NCBI GenBank assembly: GCA_030613245.1
Contig: JAUWMI010000006.1
Location: 1 to 64,000, forward strand
DNA from: Candidatus Sumerlaeota bacterium
GTDB taxonomy: Bacteria > Sumerlaeota > Sumerlaeia > MWCT01 > JAUWMI01
Direction: 5' to 3'
DNA: 64,000 nt
Shown here: in pieces, positions 3,908 through 32,933 of the stretch
Position numbering within the stretch: position 1 is the first letter of the stretch
Layout of the letters: the number at the start of each line of letters is the position of its first letter
Position numbers and translations under genes: made by a program
The notes under the pieces: model-generated
Database searches by the model: none
The model's input: only the letters and a program-made list of their open reading frames with translations
What the model was told of the DNA's origin: nothing

Positions 3908-4726
3908 TTAATAATCAATACTTTCAAAGTCTAAACCAAAGCTTCCTTTCTTTATTCTTGCTTGCAGCAATTCAATTTTATCTGGTTGTTCCCTCAAAAG
4001 CCCTATTATCTCTCGCCTTTGGAGAGCGGGCATATTGCAACCTAATATGACTTTACAAATTATTCCGCTTTGAATACGGATATTTCTCTCTTTTAAATGA
4101 AATGAGGGATGTTTCATAAGAATAAACCTATGTTCTTTTTCATATTCCCAATTGGCAGCTTTTATGATTAGCGCTTTTAGAACAATCTGTTCGATAGTCA
4201 TTTCAGAAGGATTTAAAATTGGATAATCCTTAACATATTCAACTTCGTGATGCTCTATTACCACTCCTAAGCTAACACTAATTTTTTCAAAGAACGTCTT
4301 CATTTTTTCAGCGTTAAAACCCACGCAGAAACCTTCATGCGAGTTTGAGTAGAGTGACCACATTAAAATGCTATTATGAATCTCTGAACATGAGAATATG
4401 CCAAAATCTTTATATCTTTTTTCTTGTACATAGTCATAATGCCGTTTGAGATGATTTGGGTCCTTATATAATCCCTTGCTCATCTCCTTCTTAGCTAAAT
4501 CTTCTATCGCTTCATCTTTTAACTGCGGATTTTGCATTTTAATGTGTTTTTTATAGAGTTCAAGGAAGTGCGCGTCTTCTAGCAAATCGTATCGAAGTAG
4601 TATAGTGGAGTCAAAAGGGTCATTAAATTGTTTAGCTGAGGTGAAATAAATTTCATTTTGGGTAAGCAATTTCTTATGGTTTTGATCATCCCAATCTCTG
4701 TATTTATACAGATATTTTGGTAGCAT
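3908..4726 (-). CDS. DUF2971 family protein
   Basis: The 272-residue product shows the DUF2971 pattern. The N-terminus is LYKYRD followed by a F-T-S-A-K-Q-FNDPFD block, the centre has FSCSEIHNSILMWSLYSNSHEGFCVGF, and the C-terminal third has NWEYEKEHRFI. The biochemical activity of the family is not established as far as I know; it is frequent in mobile and defence-associated regions. The upstream ribosome-binding site is weak. The gene is AT-richer than its neighbours, suggesting acquisition. It precedes the winged-helix gene at 3858 by 49 bases. Confidence 0.8.
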   Translation of the reverse strand: MLPKYLYKYRDWDDQNHKKLLTQNEIYFTSAKQFNDPFDSTILLRYDLLEDAHFLELYKKHIKMQNPQLKDEAIEDLAKKEMSKGLYKDPNHLKRHYDYVQEKRYKDFGIFSCSEIHNSILMWSLYSNSHEGFCVGFNAEKMKTFFEKISVSLGVVIEHHEVEYVKDYPILNPSEMTIEQIVLKALIIKAANWEYEKEHRFILMKHPSFHLKERNIRIQSGIICKVILGCNMPALQRREIIGLLREQPDKIELLQARIKKGSFGLDFESIDY

Positions 4727-16755: not shown

Positions 16756-17262
16756 TGCAAGACCTCCTTTGGAATAATCGCTGCTAAGGCAGCACAGGTT
16801 CGGCGCTTTCATTTCAGCCTGCGCAGCGATATTTCTTACGTGACGATTCTTATCCATACTAGAATCAGGTACGCATTTCAAGGAAGATGTGGCGGTTAGA
16901 ACAGAATTCGCCAACTTGAACATAAAGCGACCGAATAGGATGGAGATATACCAGTAAGATACATTATTGGGAGGAAACGCGAAGATTAGTGAGGAACTGT
17001 GGAGCCATGTCTCATATTTCCAAAAGGAGAGTGCGATGGTTATGTAAATTTATGAAGACAATTTTGTTGGATATTTCTTTCCCGCTAGGCTGAAGTAAAT
17101 GGCAGACAGATTCGAGTGTAAATAAAACAATTTTATTTCTTGACAACTCAAACAAAGTGCTTATTATAAAAATTGACTGTTTGAGAATTGCCATTAATTA
17201 GTTACAATATTCTGCCAGGAGATGCCAATTCAGAATGAATGTGTTATGCGAGGCGGTCTGAG
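16756..17262. other. AT-rich divergent intergenic region
   Basis: Apart from the thrS ribosome-binding site and the promoter-like pair upstream of the 17263 gene, I see no gene, repeat family member or structured RNA here. The frame upstream of thrS is open but has no coding signature. Confidence 0.5.
17140..17167 (+). promoter_or_regulatory. Sigma-70-like promoter for the 17263 gene
   Basis: TTGACA at 17140-17145 and TATTAT at 17162-17167 are separated by 16 bases in a strongly AT-rich stretch. They lie about 95 bases before the start of the exported protein gene. Confidence 0.5.
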
Positions 17263-18093
17263 ATGAGAGAATATCTAATAATATTGATACTGGGGTACTT
17301 ATGCTTCTCTCCACAAGTGTCTGAAAGTAAAGTGAATGGTTTCTCTCTTATTCAGTATGAAGATGTCGTCATAACCCTGGAAGATATAAGGGAAACTTCA
17401 GCTAGTTTGGCACAAAAAGTGCGGGTTCCCAGTCTTGTACCACCTCGAGGATTTGATCAAGTATTTCAATCATGCCTTTCAAAAATCAAGGCCAGGGTAT
17501 TAGAAGAACTGACAGAAAATATAAAGATGGACCCCGAAGAACTAAAACAAATATATGAAAAGGAATATGCTGAGCTAAGTGATAGCGATATTCAAATGTA
17601 TAACAGAAGATTGGAAATATTAGTGCAATCGGTAAAAGAGGCAAAGCAGCATTTAAATGACGAAGAAGCTCTTCATTCTATTTATTCCAAGTATGAAGAC
17701 GACCTCTCTGAAATTGGCGCACCTTATGAAATTTGGCGTGACTATTCCGTACCGCAGGACCCGCAATTTCTAACCGAAAAGCTGATAACTGGTCAATTTA
17801 AGGATAAGAATGAATTGATCAATATGGCGGCCAGCCAAAACAATATCTATACCAAAGCTAAAGTACTATTTGAAAAATTAACAAAGGACGTGAAATTGAC
17901 TGAATCAGAGCAGACTTTGGCAAGTAGATCCCGACGATCCCAACCGTTCGCTTTAGAGAGAAAAAAACAATTTATTTATGATCGGATTATCTTAAAGGAG
18001 ATTCTTAAAAAAGCAAAATTCTTTCCTAATCATTACTCCCAACGAGTAAAGCAGAGCCTCGAGGAAAGAGTTCAAAAAGAATTTATTAAATGA
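17263..18093 (+). CDS. Exported helical protein of unknown function (SurA-N-like?)
   Basis: The 276-residue product starts at the ATG preceded by GAGGCGG; an ATG 24 bases earlier lacks such a site. A signal-like hydrophobic stretch (EYLIILILGYLCF) occupies the N-terminus. The rest is charged and helical, with many Glu/Lys residues and no cysteine cluster or catalytic motif. The arrangement (a short V-I-T-L-E-D-I stretch after the signal, then long helices) recalls the chaperone part of SurA/PpiC proteins without a PPIase domain, but I cannot confirm it. The next gene, 51 bases on, has a similar plan. Both genes use AT-rich codons unlike most of the window, which suggests acquisition. Confidence 0.65.
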   Translation: MREYLIILILGYLCFSPQVSESKVNGFSLIQYEDVVITLEDIRETSASLAQKVRVPSLVPPRGFDQVFQSCLSKIKARVLEELTENIKMDPEELKQIYEKEYAELSDSDIQMYNRRLEILVQSVKEAKQHLNDEEALHSIYSKYEDDLSEIGAPYEIWRDYSVPQDPQFLTEKLITGQFKDKNELINMAASQNNIYTKAKVLFEKLTKDVKLTESEQTLASRSRRSQPFALERKKQFIYDRIILKEILKKAKFFPNHYSQRVKQSLEERVQKEFIK

Positions 18094-18144
18094 TATTTTC
18101 CCTAAAGTGACCCGAAACCATCCTACTACTGAGAGGTGCTGTGA

Positions 18145-19107
18145 ATGACAATTAAAAGCCTGAAATTATTTTGGGTATATATTCCCTTAATGAGTATTAT
18201 TTGTTCTTCTTATGGCTTTTGCCAGACAAGAACAGTTGCTGACATTTATGGTGAAGTCCTGAGTGAAGACGAAGTTTCCTCTTCAATCAAGTACATTAGA
18301 TCCTTTTCTCTCCTCTTCAATCAAAGTTTTGACGAGCAGAAGAGAAGGCTAGGCATTATTTCAGGCTGGGCCACAAAGAAAGCGGTGAATCACCTTGAGG
18401 CCAAATACTCACCGGAAGCGACGAATGAAGAAATTGCTGCTCAATGGGAATCAATAAAGGAACGTATGGCTAAACAAGGCCTGCTGGAGGAAATGAGGAA
18501 AGAAAAATACAATGAAGAGTGGAAGAATTTGCTCAAGATAGCGGTCTCGGAAGTAAACCCTTCCGGGAAAATTTTAACCGATGAGAATGCTGAGGAGCGT
18601 GTAAGGAGAGTGTTTGAACGCTATAAAGAAAGGTTTAGGAATGCTTGGCCAGAGTTTGATGACTATACGAGATATGCAGCTCTTAAAGCAAACATGTCGC
18701 AATTCCAAAGGCCTGAAGATGTGGAGGAATATTTTAACAAAATGCCAGACAGCTGGGAGGATATGCTGGCTGCACACCATGAGGGAGTAGCCAAGGAAGT
18801 CCGGGTGAATAAACTCAACGAGACACTGTTGTTTGAGAGGATAGGAGAAATTAGTTATTCCATGTTTGAGAGATATTTGAAGGCGGTAAGCAAAGACAAA
18901 GCATTAGGAATAGAAGACCGCCGGGAACAGCTTACCAAATTCTTATCTCGTTTTGCTGAATATGCCTTCCAGGATGCCATATTTAAGGAGCTGGAGAAGA
19001 ATCTGAAGATACACGATAAGAACACTGAGAATCTCTTCTGGCGACAGTACCAGGAGCCGTCACTGGACTTGTATATTGAAGTGCTACCCTCTGTATATGG
19101 GAAATAA
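18145..19107 (+). CDS. Exported helical protein of unknown function, likely paralogue of its neighbour
   Basis: The 320-residue product has a signal peptide (IKSLKLFWVYIPLMSIIC, then SSYGFCQ). A VADIYGEVLSEDEVSSSIKY segment follows that looks like the first strand-helix of SurA-type chaperones, and then a long helical region rich in Glu/Lys/Arg. No PPIase or protease motif is visible. GAGAGGTG precedes the ATG. The 51-base gap to the upstream gene and the shared layout suggest an operon of two related envelope proteins. Function unknown; periplasmic chaperone is only a guess. Confidence 0.65.
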   Translation: MTIKSLKLFWVYIPLMSIICSSYGFCQTRTVADIYGEVLSEDEVSSSIKYIRSFSLLFNQSFDEQKRRLGIISGWATKKAVNHLEAKYSPEATNEEIAAQWESIKERMAKQGLLEEMRKEKYNEEWKNLLKIAVSEVNPSGKILTDENAEERVRRVFERYKERFRNAWPEFDDYTRYAALKANMSQFQRPEDVEEYFNKMPDSWEDMLAAHHEGVAKEVRVNKLNETLLFERIGEISYSMFERYLKAVSKDKALGIEDRREQLTKFLSRFAEYAFQDAIFKELEKNLKIHDKNTENLFWRQYQEPSLDLYIEVLPSVYGK

Positions 19108-19280: not shown

Positions 19281-20195
19281 TTAAATCAGGATATCTTCAG
19301 TCCAGCCCAGCTTGATGAGCTCCATGCGCTGCATGTCGCTGGTGCCGAGATGATGTTTCGTGTCGGCTGCTGCAACGTAGGTGACCGGCGGTTTGAGCGG
19401 GCGCTCTTCGCCAAAGTAGGCGCGGCGTTTTGCCTGCAAAATGCGCACACCAACTGCGTCCAGCGCCACAGGATCCGTTCCCACTAGCAAGCCTTTGTAG
19501 TCCCACTGGTAGGTTGGGTTGAAATGATGCGGCCCGATGCCGTGAAAGAGTGGGCGCAATATCACCAGAATGTTCAGACGCGTTTTACCTTTGACGATCG
19601 GCAATTTCCAGATTGCTGCCAGGTTCTCACACGAGTTCGGGTGATACTGTGGTGGGCTTGGAACGAACATTATGTAGTTTTTAATGCATCCGCCAACGCC
19701 GGACCAGTGGTGGGTTCTGAGCGGGCGCGCGTTGATCAGTGCAGTAGCGTTGAGAAAGATCTGGTTGCGCAGCACTCCTCTATCGTCAATCCCAATCTTC
19801 TCTTGCGGCACACCAGCATCCATGGCTCGCTGCTTAATCGCCTGCTCCAGCTCTTTCGGCGTTCGGAGCGGTGCCCATACATTTGTCTTGATGCCAACTA
19901 CATCGTTAGGCTTGACCAGCTGCTTCCAGGCTTCAACCGGATCTGATTTTCCCAGCAGTGTGGTGACAGCGTCGTCAAACATCTTTTGAATCACACTTGC
20001 GTTGACGCGGTGGTTGGCGTCCAGAACTTCTGGATTTCGTATCAGCACTACTTTCGTCTTCTTCACGGCGGGTTTCACTGCCTCTTTTACCACTTCTTGC
20101 GCATCCACGCGCAGTCCGAGCGCTGCGGCCAGAAACGTACATGTAGTGCCGCGAAGAAAGTCGCGGCGAGTTATGCCTTTTTCGTAATCTGTCAT
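19281..20195 (-). CDS. Tat-exported DUF362 domain protein
   Basis: The 304-residue product begins with a twin-arginine signal (ITRRDFLRG followed by a hydrophobic run to VDAQ), so it should be exported folded, probably with a cofactor. The mature part matches DUF362: VLIRNPEV, a DDAV segment, VGIKTNVWAPLRT, and GVGGCIKNYIMF, ending with GTDPVALDAVGVRIL. DUF362 proteins are often linked to Fe-S or electron-transfer proteins, but I see no CxxCxxC cluster here. It overlaps the upstream DUF6599 gene by four bases (ATGA), with GAGGTG upstream, so translation is coupled. Confidence 0.87.
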   Translation of the reverse strand: MTDYEKGITRRDFLRGTTCTFLAAALGLRVDAQEVVKEAVKPAVKKTKVVLIRNPEVLDANHRVNASVIQKMFDDAVTTLLGKSDPVEAWKQLVKPNDVVGIKTNVWAPLRTPKELEQAIKQRAMDAGVPQEKIGIDDRGVLRNQIFLNATALINARPLRTHHWSGVGGCIKNYIMFVPSPPQYHPNSCENLAAIWKLPIVKGKTRLNILVILRPLFHGIGPHHFNPTYQWDYKGLLVGTDPVALDAVGVRILQAKRRAYFGEERPLKPPVTYVAAADTKHHLGTSDMQRMELIKLGWTEDILI

Positions 20196-21127
20196 GGGTG
20201 CGTCACCTCTAGCTTTTTGTTAACAGCCCCGAGCAGAGCTTCTGCACGAGCCCTGGTCGCGGCATCAAATACCACCGCAATAAGCTTTGGCTTGCCCACC
20301 TGTACACGTGCGGAAGTCCATTTACCATTCTCAGTCTGCGCAGTCCCCATTTTCGTCGCATCAGGCATGTATGCCGCCAGAAAGCTGTCGTATGCATTCT
20401 TTGCTTGAGCAGGAGTTGGATAATCAATCAGAAGGAGATAGCTTTTCCCTTCTGGATGCTGGTAGCGTGCCAGCACTGCGCTCGTGCTTGCGTCGAGCCT
20501 GAGAATGTTCTCGGTAGCCACGAAGTAATGATAGTTCAACATGGGGTGGGTGTGGAAGTAGCGGATACTCTGATGTATCAATCCGTCTTCTGGTAGATAG
20601 TTAAGCAGCTGCGGCTTCGAACCGCTTTCAGTGATTGCATTCGCAATAGCCTTGCCCAGAGCCATCACTGCCTGTTTTGCAGACGGGGTTTCTCGTTTTG
20701 TCAATACGCAGGTAAAGAAGCGTCCCTTCCAGAAGTATAGCAATCCCGCTTGATATTGAGAGCCTTGTCCGATTTCTCCCTCGTCGCCCTCGCGGCTGTG
20801 GCTAAAGATACCAAAGGCATCTTCTGACGAACCCATGTCGAAGAGCTCAACTGTAATTTCGGGCTGATCTGGCTCATCGAGGTTTGCAAAATTCCGGACC
20901 AGCAGATCTTGAAAACCATACGCAAGGTAAACCTCACCTGCACCGTCTATGTAATCGAAGATAGTCTTGCGGTTGTACGTTTCGTCGGTGCCTTGAATTG
21001 TCCAGCCGTGCATCGCACGCGGCACAAGCTCGTTCATGCGCATAGCGGTCTCCCCCTGAACCATTGTCGCGAATACTACTGCGGCGAGTGTAGCTAGGGT
21101 GATTTTAAAGATTCGTGATAGATTCAT
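20192..21127 (-). CDS. DUF6599-like exported protein, partner of DUF362
   Basis: The 311-residue product has a signal peptide (residues 1-26, ending VQG-ET). The mature part carries a YNRKTIFDYIDGAGEVYLAYGF block, then VELFDMGSSEDAFGIFSHSR, which I associate with the DUF6599 family. No enzymatic residues are evident. Its stop overlaps the start of the Tat-exported DUF362 gene, and the same gene order appears to recur in other uncultured bacteria as far as I recall. The pair probably acts together in the periplasm; function unknown. Confidence 0.8.
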   Translation of the reverse strand: MNLSRIFKITLATLAAVVFATMVQGETAMRMNELVPRAMHGWTIQGTDETYNRKTIFDYIDGAGEVYLAYGFQDLLVRNFANLDEPDQPEITVELFDMGSSEDAFGIFSHSREGDEGEIGQGSQYQAGLLYFWKGRFFTCVLTKRETPSAKQAVMALGKAIANAITESGSKPQLLNYLPEDGLIHQSIRYFHTHPMLNYHYFVATENILRLDASTSAVLARYQHPEGKSYLLLIDYPTPAQAKNAYDSFLAAYMPDATKMGTAQTENGKWTSARVQVGKPKLIAVVFDAATRARAEALLGAVNKKLEVTHP

Positions 21128-21275: not shown

Positions 21276-21929
21276 TTATGACGTGATCTTCGTGCGCGCC
21301 TTCCATTCCATCAGCGATGATACAACATCGCGTGCGTACTTTGGACGATAGAACACCGTGAACCCAAGTGCTTCTGCAACAGCAAACCGCCGGTAGATCT
21401 CCGCTGGCGTTTTTGCCAGTCCAAGCCACCAACTCCGTTCCCCTTTTGGCACGCCGGTGTACATCCAGTCGAGAAAAAGGAGATCCACAAGCGTTGACTC
21501 GAGCCAGTGGACTTCCTTAGTGTAGCCGGCAACCCAGCGAACCTTGGTTTTTTCAATCAGCCGACGCGGCATATCGCTGCGCGCCAGTGCGCACGAGCCC
21601 AGATGCACGCCACGAATGCTTGGTGCCTTACGCAGAATGGGAACGAGTTTGGCACCCGGAATTAACCCTTCCCTCGTCTCTAACCCTTTGAGCGTGCCAT
21701 GAGCCGCAAGGTAAAGAATCTTCGCCTTCCCACCTCCCACACGCATGCGCTGAAAGCGATCTGCCCAGTGTTGGATGTCATTCACGCTGTCGAACCGCCG
21801 GTAGAAAAGCGTCCACTCATTCGCCGCGCATAGGCCGCTAATGAACGGATAGATCGACGATAGGTCGCGCAAATCCTCCGACCACAATGCCTCCAAAACC
21901 AAAAACACTGGCTTTAGCTTCTTTCTCAT
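21276..21929 (-). CDS. Caspase-like (clan CD/CHAT-like) small protein, orphan
   Basis: The 217-residue product shows hydrophobic-strand-H-G (KILYLAAHG, His 77) and, 36 residues later, a hydrophobic strand ending in GSC (VHLGSCAL, Cys 113). This is the His-Cys dyad layout of clan CD cysteine peptidases such as caspases, gingipains and CHAT domains. The N-terminus (VFLVLEALWSEDL) fits the first strand of that fold. There is no signal peptide or fused sensor or repeat domain, unlike most CHAT proteins. I recall a family called DUF6642 of similar appearance but cannot verify it. The gene lies 148 bases upstream of the DUF6599 gene on the same strand. Protease activity is inferred from motif spacing only. 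Confidence 0.75.
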   Translation of the reverse strand: MRKKLKPVFLVLEALWSEDLRDLSSIYPFISGLCAANEWTLFYRRFDSVNDIQHWADRFQRMRVGGGKAKILYLAAHGTLKGLETREGLIPGAKLVPILRKAPSIRGVHLGSCALARSDMPRRLIEKTKVRWVAGYTKEVHWLESTLVDLLFLDWMYTGVPKGERSWWLGLAKTPAEIYRRFAVAEALGFTVFYRPKYARDVVSSLMEWKARTKITS

Positions 21930-22185: not shown

Positions 22186-23898
22186 CTATCTGGTTCGCCC
22201 GGGGGTTTGGAGGCAGAATTGCGCGATGCTTTCAATCACCTGAGGCGCCACAGTACCTGGGATTGCATATTCCTGTCCGGTGGAAGGGCCATCAACTGGC
22301 ATGAACAGGTGATTGAGTTGCGGAAAGCTTTGGAACTGCACGTTTGTCTTCCCGCTGTCGCTAAGTGTCTCTTTCCAGGCAGCAAAATCGTTCATGGTGG
22401 TCTGGTAGTCTTTCTCACCCTGGAGTACGAGAATTGGCTGAGGGATACCAGCAGCCACTTCCAGGGGTTTGCGGCTCAGGTAATCATACCAGTACTTGCC
22501 GCTTGCACCGAGGAGAAAGTGATCGGAAGGAAATGTCTTTTCGCGCAGCCGGGAAAAGCCGTTTCTAACTTCGCTTATTAGCTGGTCAATATGCTCCGAA
22601 GACACTCCCATCACCTGAGCTCGATACCGGGTCTGGCGAATAAACGTATGGTCGAAGTCAGTGGCATGCGGTGCTAGCATGATGATGCCTGCCAGCTGGT
22701 TATCCTGTGCTGCAATAAAAGGCGCGCACCATGCTCCCAGACTGTGCCCGACGAGAAAGACGCTACGGGAGTTAATGCCGGGATGTTCGCGAAGAAAGCC
22801 GATGGCGCTCAGGGCATCGTCCAGCACCTCTTCTTTGAGGGTCAGATTAATGATGTCCCTCCGTGTGAATTTCGTCCTGTAGGTGAACGTCCGCTTATCA
22901 TAGCGCAGCACGGCGATGCCGCGAGCTGCAAGCCCGTGGGCCAGATCGCGGAGCGGTTTATTTCCCCCAATGGTCTCGTCGCGATCATTCGGCCCAGAGC
23001 CGTGGAGCAGGACTACGCCGGGAACGGGTCGGTTTGTGCTCGATGGAAGGGTCAGCGTGCCGTATAGCGTATACTTGTCGCTCTGAAACGTCACCTCTTT
23101 CTCGGTGAACTCCTGTACGGAAACTTGTGTTAGAGCCGGTGTGGCAACTGGTGTGACAACTGGTGCGACAGGAGACTCGGCGACATCCGGGAATGATGCA
23201 CCTTGAAGGAGTGCTTCCGTCTGCTGGTCGGGACTTGCCGTCCTGAGCACTAGACCGGTCTGCTTCGCAACCCAGGCTTTCATTTCATAGCCCATCATAC
23301 TCATCTCAAAAATCACAGTCTCAACAGGCGATCCATTGAGGATTGCGGTTCCGGAGCCAGCAAGGCGCACCGTGACTGGCATTGACATGAGCATTGAAGG
23401 CATCAGCGTCTGAAATTGTTGTTCGCCCCCAACGGTACGATCATATTGCCTGAGCAGAAATTCCGCATCAAATGCAACGCCCTCTCTTACAACCATACCG
23501 CGCTGCCACGGGATGCGCTTTTCCTGTGGCGTTGGGCCCATCACAGATTTCATTACTACTGTATCCCCTTCAACGACCGCACTCGCCTGCATCGTCATTC
23601 CAGCCACTTCGGACTCCGAAGTGTATTTTTTGAGCTGGTAATCGGTGGTCAGGAGTAGGTCATGCTTTGTAGTTATTGCGGCCTTTCCCGGAAAGGCAGA
23701 GGTTGACTTCGCGGTGACGTGAATGCTCTGGCCATCCGGCGTTGGCTGGACAACAGAGGTTTCTTGGCTAACGGATTTTCCCCTGAACGTGGCGGAATAA
23801 ACTCTTTGAGCCTGCTCGGCCCAGAGTAGCGCATGGCTCATCACGAGCATGCTGACCAGAAGCACGAGTAATACTTGCCAGCTGCAGTATCGTTTCAT
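22186..23898 (-). CDS. Secreted alpha/beta hydrolase with N-terminal lipoprotein-like beta domain
   Basis: The 570-residue product starts at the ATG with AAGGAAG six bases upstream; a TTG 18 bases earlier overlaps that site. A signal peptide covers about residues 1-28. Residues 30-235 form a beta-rich domain with paired strands resembling DUF3108-type folds. A linker rich in Ala/Val/Thr/Pro (about 240-265) leads to an S9/dienelactone-hydrolase-type domain with VVLLHGSGPNDRDE (oxyanion loop), nucleophile elbow GHSLGAW (Ser 386), Asp near 497 in LQGEKDYQ and His near 530 in QLNHLF. It probably hydrolyses an ester or peptide bond in the periplasm; substrate unknown. Confidence 0.87.
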   Translation of the reverse strand: MKRYCSWQVLLVLLVSMLVMSHALLWAEQAQRVYSATFRGKSVSQETSVVQPTPDGQSIHVTAKSTSAFPGKAAITTKHDLLLTTDYQLKKYTSESEVAGMTMQASAVVEGDTVVMKSVMGPTPQEKRIPWQRGMVVREGVAFDAEFLLRQYDRTVGGEQQFQTLMPSMLMSMPVTVRLAGSGTAILNGSPVETVIFEMSMMGYEMKAWVAKQTGLVLRTASPDQQTEALLQGASFPDVAESPVAPVVTPVATPALTQVSVQEFTEKEVTFQSDKYTLYGTLTLPSSTNRPVPGVVLLHGSGPNDRDETIGGNKPLRDLAHGLAARGIAVLRYDKRTFTYRTKFTRRDIINLTLKEEVLDDALSAIGFLREHPGINSRSVFLVGHSLGAWCAPFIAAQDNQLAGIIMLAPHATDFDHTFIRQTRYRAQVMGVSSEHIDQLISEVRNGFSRLREKTFPSDHFLLGASGKYWYDYLSRKPLEVAAGIPQPILVLQGEKDYQTTMNDFAAWKETLSDSGKTNVQFQSFPQLNHLFMPVDGPSTGQEYAIPGTVAPQVIESIAQFCLQTPGRTR

Positions 23899-23948
23899 GG
23901 CACTCTTCCTTTTCAAACTGATATTTCTAATTTCATCGTGTAATTGTA

Positions 23949-28301: not shown

Positions 28302-30002
28302 ATGGTCTACAAGCCAGAAAACCCAGTGATAGTTCAGTCGGACAGGAGCATTCTGCTCGAAACAAATAGTCCTGAGTTTGAATCAGCGCGTGATGCCCTG
28401 GCTAGTTTTGCAGAACTCATTAAGAGTCCCGAGCATTACCATACGTACCGGATTTCCCCACTCTCCTTGTGGAATGCAGCGTCAGCTGGCCTGAATGCTG
28501 AGGGAATTATTCAGAAGCTAGAGACCTATAGCAAGTACGATATTCCACAGAATATCCTCCAGGACGTCCGCGATTATGTGGCACGCTATGGTCGGCTTAA
28601 GATGATTAAGGAGGAGAGCGGCGATCTTATTTTAGTCTCTGACGACGAGTTTTTAATCACGGAAATCACGCACAATCGGATGGTGCAGCAGTTAATCGAA
28701 GTACAGCTGGACAAGCGGCGCGTTCAGGTCAAGCACGGCATGCGCGGCCGCATCAAACAGGCGTTGATTAAAATTGGCTACCCGGTAGAAGACCTTGCGG
28801 GCTACATCGAAGGGGACCCGTTAGATCTGCGGGTGCGCGAAATCACGGTTGCGGAGCGGCCGTTTGCCTTGCGCGAATATCAGCGCGATGCAGTGGAGGT
28901 CTTCTATGCTCAAGGCTCGAGTCACGGCGGAAGCGGCGTGCTGGTGCTTCCGTGTGGCGCAGGGAAAACGATTATCGGCATCGGCGTGATGGAAAAGGTT
29001 CGGCAGCATACGCTGATTCTTGCAACCAACATCACGGCCCTGCGCCAGTGGCGTGACGAGCTAAAGGATAAGACCAGCCTGACTGACAAGGATATCGGCG
29101 AATATAGTGGCGAGGTTAAAGATATCCGCCCCGTCACGATCACCACGTACCAGATTCTGACCTATCGCAAGAAGAAGGACGATGAGTTTGTTCATATGGA
29201 GCTCTTTAATCTCCAGAATTGGGGGCTGATTGTTTACGATGAAGTACACCTGCTTCCTGCGCCGGTATTTCGCGCGGTGGCAGACATTCAGGGAAAGCGG
29301 CGCCTTGGCCTGACCGCCACTCTGGTCAGGGAGGATGGCAAGGAGGACGATGTTTTCAGCCTGATCGGTCCGAAGAAGTACGATGTGCCGTGGAAGGTGC
29401 TGGAGAAACAGGGCTGGATTGCCAAGGCACTTTGTACTGAGATTCGCATTCCCTTGCCGGAAGCAAAGCGGCTGGAGTACGCTGTGGCAGACGCGAAGGC
29501 GAAGTTTCGAATCGCCTCTGAAAATCCCGCTAAGTTCACTGTGGTCCGGAACCTTATTGAGCAGCACAGTGACGATAATATCCTCATCATTGGCCAATAT
29601 ATAAACCAGCTCCAGCTGCTTGCAGAGCAGTTTGATGCCCCGATCATTACGGGAAAAACGCCAAACAAGGATCGTGAGAGAATCTACGGTGACTTCAAAA
29701 ATGGCGTGCTCAAACGGCTGATCGTCTCAAAGGTCGCCAATTTCGCCATTGATCTTCCTGATGCCAACGTGGCGATTCAAGTGTCGGGCACTTTTGGCTC
29801 GCGCCAGGAGGAAGCTCAGCGCCTGGGACGAATTCTTCGGCCGAAATCTGAAGGCAACTTTGCTCACTTCTATTCGCTGGTCACGAAGGATACCAAAGAC
29901 CAGGAATTTGCAGCCAACCGTCAACTGTTCTTGACAGAGCAGGGCTACCGCTATAAAATTATTATAGAAAATAGTGAGAAAGGGGATAATACACCAGTAT
30001 AG
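28302..30002 (+). CDS. XPB/Ssl2-type superfamily 2 DNA helicase
   Basis: The 566-residue product has an N-terminal damage-recognition-like region, a Walker A motif LPCGAGKT (217-224), the Walker B DEVH (313-316), motif III GLTAT, and the XPB-specific RED triplet (343-345) in LVREDGKEDD. The C-terminal RecA domain ends with QEEAQRLGRILRP. These features distinguish XPB from RecG or UvrB. In eukaryotes and archaea XPB unwinds DNA in transcription and repair; in bacteria its role is less clear. GAGGAA precedes the ATG. A large protein follows after 174 bases on the same strand and likely works with it. Confidence 0.93.
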   Translation: MVYKPENPVIVQSDRSILLETNSPEFESARDALASFAELIKSPEHYHTYRISPLSLWNAASAGLNAEGIIQKLETYSKYDIPQNILQDVRDYVARYGRLKMIKEESGDLILVSDDEFLITEITHNRMVQQLIEVQLDKRRVQVKHGMRGRIKQALIKIGYPVEDLAGYIEGDPLDLRVREITVAERPFALREYQRDAVEVFYAQGSSHGGSGVLVLPCGAGKTIIGIGVMEKVRQHTLILATNITALRQWRDELKDKTSLTDKDIGEYSGEVKDIRPVTITTYQILTYRKKKDDEFVHMELFNLQNWGLIVYDEVHLLPAPVFRAVADIQGKRRLGLTATLVREDGKEDDVFSLIGPKKYDVPWKVLEKQGWIAKALCTEIRIPLPEAKRLEYAVADAKAKFRIASENPAKFTVVRNLIEQHSDDNILIIGQYINQLQLLAEQFDAPIITGKTPNKDRERIYGDFKNGVLKRLIVSKVANFAIDLPDANVAIQVSGTFGSRQEEAQRLGRILRPKSEGNFAHFYSLVTKDTKDQEFAANRQLFLTEQGYRYKIIIENSEKGDNTPV

Positions 30003-30039
30003 CTTACAACGGATCTTTCATAGAGAGGGGGGGCTCTAG

Positions 30040-30071
30040 TCTATAGCCTCGCCCCCAGGCGAGGCTATTAC
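30040..30071. repeat. CTATAGC-family hairpin in the XPB operon gap
   Basis: TCTATAGCCTCGCC and GGCGAGGCTATTAC form a stem around CCCA. Outer words match 12213-12241 while the inner arms differ. Confidence 0.65.
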
Positions 30072-30176
30072 GCGTGCGATTATGAGGCGGGTGTCGTTGC
30101 GAACCCACCAGAGTTCGGATACCCGTTGCAGTGATTTAGAACTCCACATTATACAGTATCTAGGTAGGGAAGTCTT

Positions 30177-32933
30177 ATGAAGCTAAAAAGTATTCTCAGA
30201 ACACTTCCGTATAAAACACTGGCAGATATTCTTGACTTTTGGAAAATCCAACCGCCGACGCTTGACGATGAACTGAAAGAGAAGCATCGCCAGATCATCG
30301 TGGCCGATTATCTCTATCCGCGGCTTCAGAATCGCCAGTTCTTCGAAGGTGCATACGCCAAGCTCTCAGAGGAGGATAAGGACGTTATCTTTTTCCTCGC
30401 CATTCACGGTGGCGACCTGGAGAAGGAGGAAGTCCTGGAACGATTCTTCAATGGCGATGCCAAGCAGTTCGACGACATCGTCGCCCAGCTCAGCTCCAAA
30501 GGCTTTGTCTTTATAGACGATCTGAGCGATGAAGAGGTAGGTGCAGTGCTGGTCGGTCTACCTGAGCCCTATCTGCGCTACATCGAGCTGCCTTCCTACT
30601 GGGAGGGATACCTGGGAAACTTCTTGAAAGACCTCTCCACACAGCAACTTAAGACCATGGCGCATACCGGGATGAAGCTCCAGCTCGACTCAGTCAAAAA
30701 GAATTTTCTGCTAAGCCGCATTCGCAAGTTCCTGCTGAACCCGGCCAAGCTCAAGGAATACATTAACGGTCTCCCCGCAAACGAACGTCAGGTGTTTAAC
30801 ACCCTATTGGAGCGCAAAGGTGTCTGCGTCTACCGCGACCTTCTTGATGTGGGTTATCAGAAGCGCTACGATCATTCCAAGGCGGACTATATTAACAATC
30901 TGCTGGCGGTCAGCGGGCTCGTGTTCACGGCAGTGCACAAGCCTAACAAGTACAACAACCTCCTCATGATTCCCCGAGACATCTACTATAGTATTGAGAA
31001 TAAGTTCAAGCCGGATCGCCGGTCGCTTAAAGATCTCGACACCGTGAGCCTGCCTGGGCGCGAGAGTCCGCCTACCATTGTGCTGGATAATTCGAACTCG
31101 TTTCTGCGTGATATAGTGGTTTTCGTCAGTTTCATCAATCGCAATGCTGTGAGGACTTTGAGCAATGGCGGGATTGGAAAGAACGACTTGAAGAAGTTAC
31201 TCCCGCTCATGAGTGCGAACAAGACGGTCAAGTACGTCAGCTTCATCGCGCTGTTCTTGATCAACAAGAAATTCATCATCGGTGTTGGGGGTCAGTGGAA
31301 AATTAGCAATACGTTTATCAAATGGCTGGAAGACTCCCAGGAGTGCTATCAGGATGTCTTCCAGTACTGGCTGGAAACGAGCGAGTGGAATGAAGAACTT
31401 GTTGAGGGGAACACCGTACATACGGAAACGAGCCCGAGTAGTCTGGTCAACATTCCCGAGATGCGCAAGCTTGTATTGAAGAACATCGAGATTATCCCGC
31501 ATGATCGCTGGATTGACTTTGGTGCGTTCGTTGAAAGCCTACTGCCGCAGATCGAGATCGACATTCCTAAACGCGGGAGCCAGCTGGTGCTCGAGCGCAA
31601 CAATCGGCCTAATACCCTGGTTGTCGAGTCCGTTATTGCTGAAACGATGTACTGGTTGGGTCTTGTGACACTGGGGCCGCAAAACAACCGCGATATCGGC
31701 CGATTGGGTAATCGCCTGTCGGAAGCCCACGAGAGAACGGGCAAACGTCTCAAGGCTGAGGGCAGCCAAAAGTTGCGGTTTTTCTTTAAACTCACTGACC
31801 TCGGCAGTTTTGTACTCGAAGGCCCGTATCTCGAACCGCAAAAGCTCTTTGAACGCCAGAGTCGCAAGGTTATAACACCACTCAATTACGATATTAGGGA
31901 ATTCACTGTTCAGCCGAACCTCGAAATCATCACACCGCCAGATTTAAACTTGAAGTCCTTCTACCACCTCAATGAATTTGCCGACATTAAAACGGTAGAC
32001 GTGATGTCTACCCTCACCATTTCCAAGGAATCATTGCGCGAAGGAATGGACAAGGGGCTGCGCGGCGAGGATATCTTGAAGTTCCTGAATGAAAGCTCTC
32101 GCCAGCGCCTGCCGGATACCGTGCGCCATCTCATAAGCGAATGTAGCGACAAGCACGGTGAGGTCAATATGGGTTTTGCAGGTGGCTATATTAAAGTTGA
32201 TGACCCTATCTTGCTCGAGGAGCTGAAGTCCCAGAAGCGCATTCGTGCCGTCATTAAAGACATTGTGGACGACAAGCTCATTCTCCTCGACCCCGACGTC
32301 AACGTGAAGAAACTGGCCAGAGAATTGCAGCGCCTCGGCTTTATGCCTCAGCTCGATTCCGAACAAGTACACCTCACCAGCGAAGGCCGATATCATCTGA
32401 GCCTTACCAAAGAAGACCTCTACTATCTGCTCGGTGCCCTGCAGTTAATCTTGGCGGTTGAAGAGGAACTTGGAACCTCGGTTACTGATGATCGGGTGGC
32501 TCCTCTCCTGGAACGGCTGAAGCCCGATAGCGATAGCTCCTACAACCTGCACTTCTTTGCCGAAACCATTGCTAAGGGATTTTATAAGAAGTTCAGATCA
32601 GCAATGAAAAAGAAGATTGGCGAAGCCACTACCAAGTATAAGAAGCAGGTATCTCGTTTGATTACTTCAACGTCCCCTCGTGCTCTATCCAAGTACTCGT
32701 TCTCCGGCCCTAATCCCTCGAAAAAAAAGAGCGATATCAAAAATATGATTGATTTTGCCATTGATAATAGTTTTGAGCTGGAGATTAAGTACCTGAAATC
32801 TAGCGACGAGAAAGTAGAAGAGGTGGTGGAACCCGAATCGGTTGATAGTGATAAGCTTTACGCCTACTGCGAGAAGCGGGATTCCTATAGTGTATACCGC
32901 CTTGATCGAATTCAGCAAACACGGCTATTATAA
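30177..32933 (+). CDS. Large XPB-associated protein with helicase-associated (Helicase_C_3-like) and WYL-like domains
   Basis: The 918-residue product follows the XPB gene with no other gene between. Residues 1-120 are helical. A central region about 580-740 includes FTVQPNLEIITPPDLN, ADIKTVDVMSTLTISKESL and VRHLISEC, which resembles the helicase-associated C-terminal domain found next to bacterial XPB. The last 80 residues (IDFAIDNSFELEIKYLKS, then VEPESVDSDKLYAYCEKR and RLDRIQQTRLL) look like a WYL ligand/nucleic-acid sensing fold. No ATPase motif is seen, so it is probably a regulatory or DNA-binding partner. Start ATG follows GGTAGGGA. The XPB-partner assignment is by neighbourhood and pattern. 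Confidence 0.8.
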   Translation: MKLKSILRTLPYKTLADILDFWKIQPPTLDDELKEKHRQIIVADYLYPRLQNRQFFEGAYAKLSEEDKDVIFFLAIHGGDLEKEEVLERFFNGDAKQFDDIVAQLSSKGFVFIDDLSDEEVGAVLVGLPEPYLRYIELPSYWEGYLGNFLKDLSTQQLKTMAHTGMKLQLDSVKKNFLLSRIRKFLLNPAKLKEYINGLPANERQVFNTLLERKGVCVYRDLLDVGYQKRYDHSKADYINNLLAVSGLVFTAVHKPNKYNNLLMIPRDIYYSIENKFKPDRRSLKDLDTVSLPGRESPPTIVLDNSNSFLRDIVVFVSFINRNAVRTLSNGGIGKNDLKKLLPLMSANKTVKYVSFIALFLINKKFIIGVGGQWKISNTFIKWLEDSQECYQDVFQYWLETSEWNEELVEGNTVHTETSPSSLVNIPEMRKLVLKNIEIIPHDRWIDFGAFVESLLPQIEIDIPKRGSQLVLERNNRPNTLVVESVIAETMYWLGLVTLGPQNNRDIGRLGNRLSEAHERTGKRLKAEGSQKLRFFFKLTDLGSFVLEGPYLEPQKLFERQSRKVITPLNYDIREFTVQPNLEIITPPDLNLKSFYHLNEFADIKTVDVMSTLTISKESLREGMDKGLRGEDILKFLNESSRQRLPDTVRHLISECSDKHGEVNMGFAGGYIKVDDPILLEELKSQKRIRAVIKDIVDDKLILLDPDVNVKKLARELQRLGFMPQLDSEQVHLTSEGRYHLSLTKEDLYYLLGALQLILAVEEELGTSVTDDRVAPLLERLKPDSDSSYNLHFFAETIAKGFYKKFRSAMKKKIGEATTKYKKQVSRLITSTSPRALSKYSFSGPNPSKKKSDIKNMIDFAIDNSFELEIKYLKSSDEKVEEVVEPESVDSDKLYAYCEKRDSYSVYRLDRIQQTRLL

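Follow-up and report, generated by a model that had tools for sequence, protein, structure and literature searches.

The bacterial caspase-like immune proteases characterised so far are tied to sensors, as in TPR-CHAT (PMC9729208) and SAVED-CHAT (PMC11229360). The SAVED-CHAT enzyme gives immunity through a cascade of proteolysis (PMC11229360). Clan CD peptidases place the histidine of the dyad after strand beta-3 and the cysteine after beta-4, and their loop after beta-5 carries a conserved aromatic residue that lines the S1 pocket (PMC4357240). We analysed a 64,000-nucleotide stretch of a Candidatus Sumerlaeota contig (the window). A gene at 21276–21929 on the minus strand encodes a predicted stand-alone, caspase-like clan CD cysteine peptidase of 217 residues, assigned from the open reading frame (ORF), an AlphaFold2 (AF2) model with a caspase fold and a conserved family. 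It is almost certainly a caspase-fold protein with an intact dyad. With moderate confidence, we read it as an active, stand-alone peptidase with an accessory effector role in conflict or stress, activated by assembly or by a separate partner.

The coordinates are exact, stop codon included. The preliminary description gave them correctly but without a strand; the plus strand of 21276–21929 is interrupted by several stops, and the ORF lies on the minus strand. Translation places His77, the predicted catalytic histidine, within LYLAAHG (codon 21699–21701, minus strand) and Cys113, the predicted nucleophile, within HLGSCAL (codon 21591–21593, minus strand), the two motifs from which a clan CD dyad in a small stand-alone protein had been proposed. 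Neither Pfam nor NCBIfam places a fused repeat, TPR or other domain in the 217 residues, so the single-domain architecture first described also stands. No signal peptide is apparent. The source genome carries one copy of the family.

The dyad is retained across the family. Across 39 aligned members sharing 20–35% identity, no position is invariant other than His77, Gly78 and Cys113 (39/39 each). Few other columns reach 90%, namely Glu13 (37/38), Trp16 (35/38), Tyr136 (37/39), Trp142 (36/39) and Ala75, and the dyad motif is therefore more than a chance occurrence. Six remote members (from the plasmid search and the same-class genome G005, with the window protein) have Tyr73, Ala75, His77, Gly78, Cys113, Gly135 and Trp142 in common. 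Loss of the histidine or cysteine in homologues, named beforehand as grounds for dropping the assignment, was not seen. The invariance of the dyad in these alignments points to proteolysis as the protein's probable activity.

Some members carry additional segments. Four (L050, 7350–8273, minus; L051, 6871–7827, plus; L052, 8057–9133, minus; L053, 324–1250, plus) seem to have a signal peptide, together with an additional N-terminal domain (DFSGxWxTTYG) that matches nothing in Pfam, and are apparently exported caspase-like proteins. Two others (L054, 7806–8573, minus; L055, 7870–8676, plus) have, by eye, an N-terminal SH3/Tudor-like segment ahead of the caspase-like domain. An apparent 794-residue fusion at L044 was traced to an over-extended ORF start, its upstream part looking out of frame, and was not counted.

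Structure prediction, suggested at the outset as a check for the caspase-hemoglobinase fold, returned that fold. An AF2 model built from a 25-sequence alignment reached pLDDT 80 (over 90 in most of the core) and pTM 0.79. Its topology, b1-a1-b2-a2-b3-hairpin-a3-b4-a4-b5-a5-b6, follows the caspase order of strands and helices around a six-stranded sheet, and the alpha/beta/alpha assignment is shared by AF2, Foldseek and VIA-align. In the model His77 comes right after beta-3 (70–75) and Cys113 right after beta-4 (105–110). This is the clan CD placement, kept throughout the family, and the alternative of a predicted fold lacking the dyad geometry did not materialise. The top Foldseek matches were caspase-4, caspase-7, caspase-11 and CED-3 (E from 3.7e-5). 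VIA-align placed the CHAT domain within the activated SAVED-CHAT filament first (8tl0; Z 15.8 over 179 residues, 20% identity), followed by caspases and legumain at Z about 12. The segment 159–188 and the C-terminal tail are poorly predicted.

The model also bears on specificity and activation. Tyr136 and Trp142 sit after beta-5 and would match the clan CD S1 aromatic. Two conserved acidic residues near the L1 region, Glu13 and Asp19, suggest a possible preference for basic P1 residues. Only 18 residues separate Cys113 from beta-5, and no long caspase-style cleavage linker is apparent.

Current profiles do not capture this protein. Its sole Pfam match is DUF6642 (PF20347), at E 0.15 and 12.1 bits, well short of the 27-bit gathering cut-off. 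The match is collinear over residues 11–154, and the window protein is related to DUF6642 at the superfamily level only. Peptidase_C14 (PF00656), which covers caspases, metacaspases and orthocaspases, does not match it up to E 10 and matches nothing in the source genome at E 0.01. The CHAT profile (PF12770) does not match it, and it lacks the fused TPR or SAVED sensor of the characterised CHAT members. NCBIfam and the PADLOC models likewise returned no match to the window protein, and PADLOC gave only weak matches among 25 family members. Neither the window protein nor a 25-row profile could be linked by sequence profile to the solved caspases in the PDB; the caspase link therefore rests on the fold. 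A literature search on DUF6642, to which Pfam gives no function, found no papers, and a search for the name PCaspase returned eukaryotic or unrelated uses only. The window protein thus is a member of a divergent, unannotated clan CD family that existing caspase profiles fail to detect.

The family is rare (1–3% of genomes), patchy and spread over several phyla. Among relatives it was found in 2 of 61 genomes, the window's own and G005. A profile of the six remote members detected it in 11 of 386 diverse genomes, and a second search, in another phylum, in 4 of 246. The remote-member alignment was too diverse for patterns, and the pattern search started from the two closest plasmid homologues, aligned with each other; it yielded 26 genome loci, mostly in Gammaproteobacteria, with one Nitrospirae and one Myxococcales metagenome-assembled genome (MAG). 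Scanning genome and viral contigs with a pattern from the window protein alone gave no close relatives, and none of the family was found in phage records or E. coli genomes. Members also occur on plasmids and beside a tyrosine recombinase, and one IMG/VR contig of phage type carries a member. This phage-borne copy (L047, 7986–8555, plus) is a DUF6642-branch protein with a caspase fold on a 212-kb viral contig, adjoining a terminase large-subunit fragment.

The nearest relatives of the window protein are in Myxococcales (33% identity) and Nitrospirae (29%), not in G005. The window gene groups with Rhizobium, Nitrospirae, Myxococcales and gammaproteobacterial proteins (split support 97/98), and the G005 copy groups with DUF6642-type proteins and the phage copy. 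Relatives on that DUF6642 branch match the Pfam profile strongly (best E 1.4e-32); the window protein is in a separate, supported branch. Combined with its occurrence in just 2 of the 61 genomes searched among relatives, this placement implies horizontal movement. The behaviour of the gene is that of a mobile, accessory one.

Genes of defence type are often found near members of the gammaproteobacterial sister clade. A regulator cluster recurs beside these members, identified as WYL by both Pfam and PADLOC in those checked; co-localisation of WYL regulators with phage defence is known (PMC9122601). In the 17 host genomes (about 79 Mb) Pfam detects 37 WYL domains. Six of these fall no further than 6.5 kb from a family gene, involving 5 of the 17, against an expectation of about 0.1; two of the five are from Halomonas and may represent one event. 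The other neighbours include type I restriction enzymes, the MADS component mad7 and DUF262-type (NsnA-like) proteins. The 111 neighbours of 28 loci match 212 PADLOC models versus 32 for a matched sample of 104 proteins taken from random positions in those genomes, a comparison that is indicative only, since the models are redundant, the tally counts models rather than proteins, one protein can match many models, and the neighbours come from plasmid and MAG loci as well. One background locus, L093, was excluded because its contig carries a family gene. In two Halopseudomonas loci a 214-residue protein of unknown family (L028, 7284–7928, plus) lies between a WYL regulator and the caspase-like gene and is a possible partner.

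The defence-context relatives share about 20–25% identity with the window protein, and the enrichment is seen at their loci, not around the window gene. The role in immunity or cell death first suggested for the window protein thus has indirect backing from genomic context, in the sister clade only; the surroundings of the window copy are ordinary. An immune role of the window protein is plausible, and its distribution and the sister-clade context make an accessory conflict or stress protease its most likely use. A narrower proposal is possible but doubtful. It holds that the window gene and the gammaproteobacterial sister clade are single-gene caspase effectors of immunity, each a minimal caspase with no fused sensor that would sense infection itself or be brought to assemble by a factor from host or phage, and that would kill or stall the cell by proteolysis.

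Around the window gene itself G+C is ordinary, and the neighbours encode housekeeping and exported proteins (LepA, a tRNA synthetase, an alpha/beta hydrolase). Upstream is an exported alpha/beta hydrolase assigned by Pfam (22186–23916, minus). Downstream are a DUF6599 gene (20192–21127, minus; Pfam E 3.5e-37) and a DUF362 gene with a Tat-like signal, RRDFLRG (19281–20195, minus; E 8.4e-11). All are on the same strand as the caspase-like gene, and all three were judged to lie outside the system. The adjacency to the exported DUF6599–DUF362 pair was correctly described at first. The pair recurs in G013, G019 and G040 with no caspase-like gene. The adjacency is therefore taken as incidental, and a functional unit with the pair was rejected. 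No PADLOC match was found among the neighbours scanned from 12.3 to 26.1 kb, and no SAVED, CRISPR or CHAT gene was seen near the caspase-like gene in the window. What the preliminary description called an orphan belongs to a sporadic multi-phylum family, but its remark on the lack of a sensor or partner holds for the window, with one family copy in the genome and no PADLOC match in that interval.

Three other regions of the window are recorded here. Two exported proteins that match nothing in Pfam are encoded in an island of unusually low G+C at 17239–19104 on the plus strand (37–42%, against 51% for the window). A DUF2971 protein of low G+C (34%) at 3911–4726 on the minus strand is a match (E 8.7e-71) to PDC-S31, one of PADLOC's models for candidate defence systems. 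At 28302–32930 on the plus strand, a PbeA-matching protein by PADLOC is followed by a 918-residue Helicase_C_3 and WYL protein, probably an XPB-type helicase pair.

These surroundings raise the prospect of a housekeeping or envelope-related peptidase whose task is to process one specific protein of the cell, which might be tied to the DUF6599, DUF362 or hydrolase neighbours and which has no immune role. The ordinary same-strand chromosomal neighbours with their normal G+C are in keeping with it, as are the relatives with an apparent N-terminal signal and extra domain. We consider it unlikely, however, given that the gene is absent from 59 of the 61 genomes searched among relatives, that the pair persists elsewhere on its own, that the window protein itself has no apparent signal peptide, and that relatives are found on plasmids and near defence genes.

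Somewhat less likely still is that the protein is a caspase acting downstream in a cascade of proteases, that another protease cleaves or activates it, and that its trigger is encoded at some other place in the genome. SAVED-CHAT is the nearest solved structure, and CHAT-type proteases act in cascades (PMC11229360, PMC9729208). The source genome does have a second stand-alone caspase-like ORF, CHAT-like and of 297 residues (L062 on contig C69, 982–1875, minus; HIECHG...LVLAACHGGH), beside an RCC1-like repeat protein, and the idea that it is a candidate upstream partner can be entertained. This second protein is, however, on another contig and falls just under the Pfam CHAT cut-off, no SAVED, CRISPR or CHAT gene was seen close to the window gene, and no intersubunit cleavage linker is evident in the AF2 model. 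A degenerate, inactive caspase fold acting through binding only is very improbable: although no activity is known for any family member and DUF6642 is a Pfam family of unknown function, a dyad invariant at 20–35% identity is not expected without catalysis.

For the favoured reading, an active accessory effector, the model suggests how the protein could work. His77 would act as the general base for the Cys113 nucleophile, with Tyr136 and Trp142 lining the S1 pocket. Because the protein has no prodomain, no fused sensor and so short a stretch between Cys113 and beta-5, activation probably does not proceed by cutting a long caspase-type linker. It is more likely to come about by self-association along the beta-6 edge or by binding of a separately encoded partner, upon which the 159–188 segment and the C-terminal tail would become ordered. 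The window protein would most likely be an effector or a regulator in a response to invasion or stress.

The family is of interest as a minimal, sensor-less caspase fold, invisible to profiles, that occurs on plasmids, a phage-type contig and defence-type islands. With it, the question of how a bare caspase domain becomes active could be studied in a small system, and it is a candidate ancestral or effector form. The analysis also supplies a predicted fold and catalytic dyad for the proteins grouped around DUF6642, a Pfam family with no assigned function.

Set beside the known systems, the window protein is most like the CHAT domain of SAVED-CHAT (8tl0), its best structural match, which has the same caspase fold with a His-Cys dyad. 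SAVED-CHAT, however, brings its own cyclic-oligonucleotide sensor and forms filaments, whereas the window protein amounts to a protease domain by itself and has no Pfam CHAT match. TPR-CHAT (Craspase, Csx29) is likewise a caspase-like His-Cys protease of bacterial immunity (PMC9729208), but it requires TPRs and a CRISPR effector, and the window protein has neither. With the metazoan caspases of family C14 (caspase-4, caspase-7, CED-3) it has fold, strand order and dyad placement in common (PMC4357240), at about 10% identity and without their prodomain, long cleavable linker between the cysteine and beta-5, or Peptidase_C14 match. To DUF6642 it shows a weak, collinear match, but it is below the cut-off and in a separate supported branch. 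The window protein is thus built like Peptidase_C14, CHAT and DUF6642 proteins while fitting none of their profile definitions, and it probably works like them.
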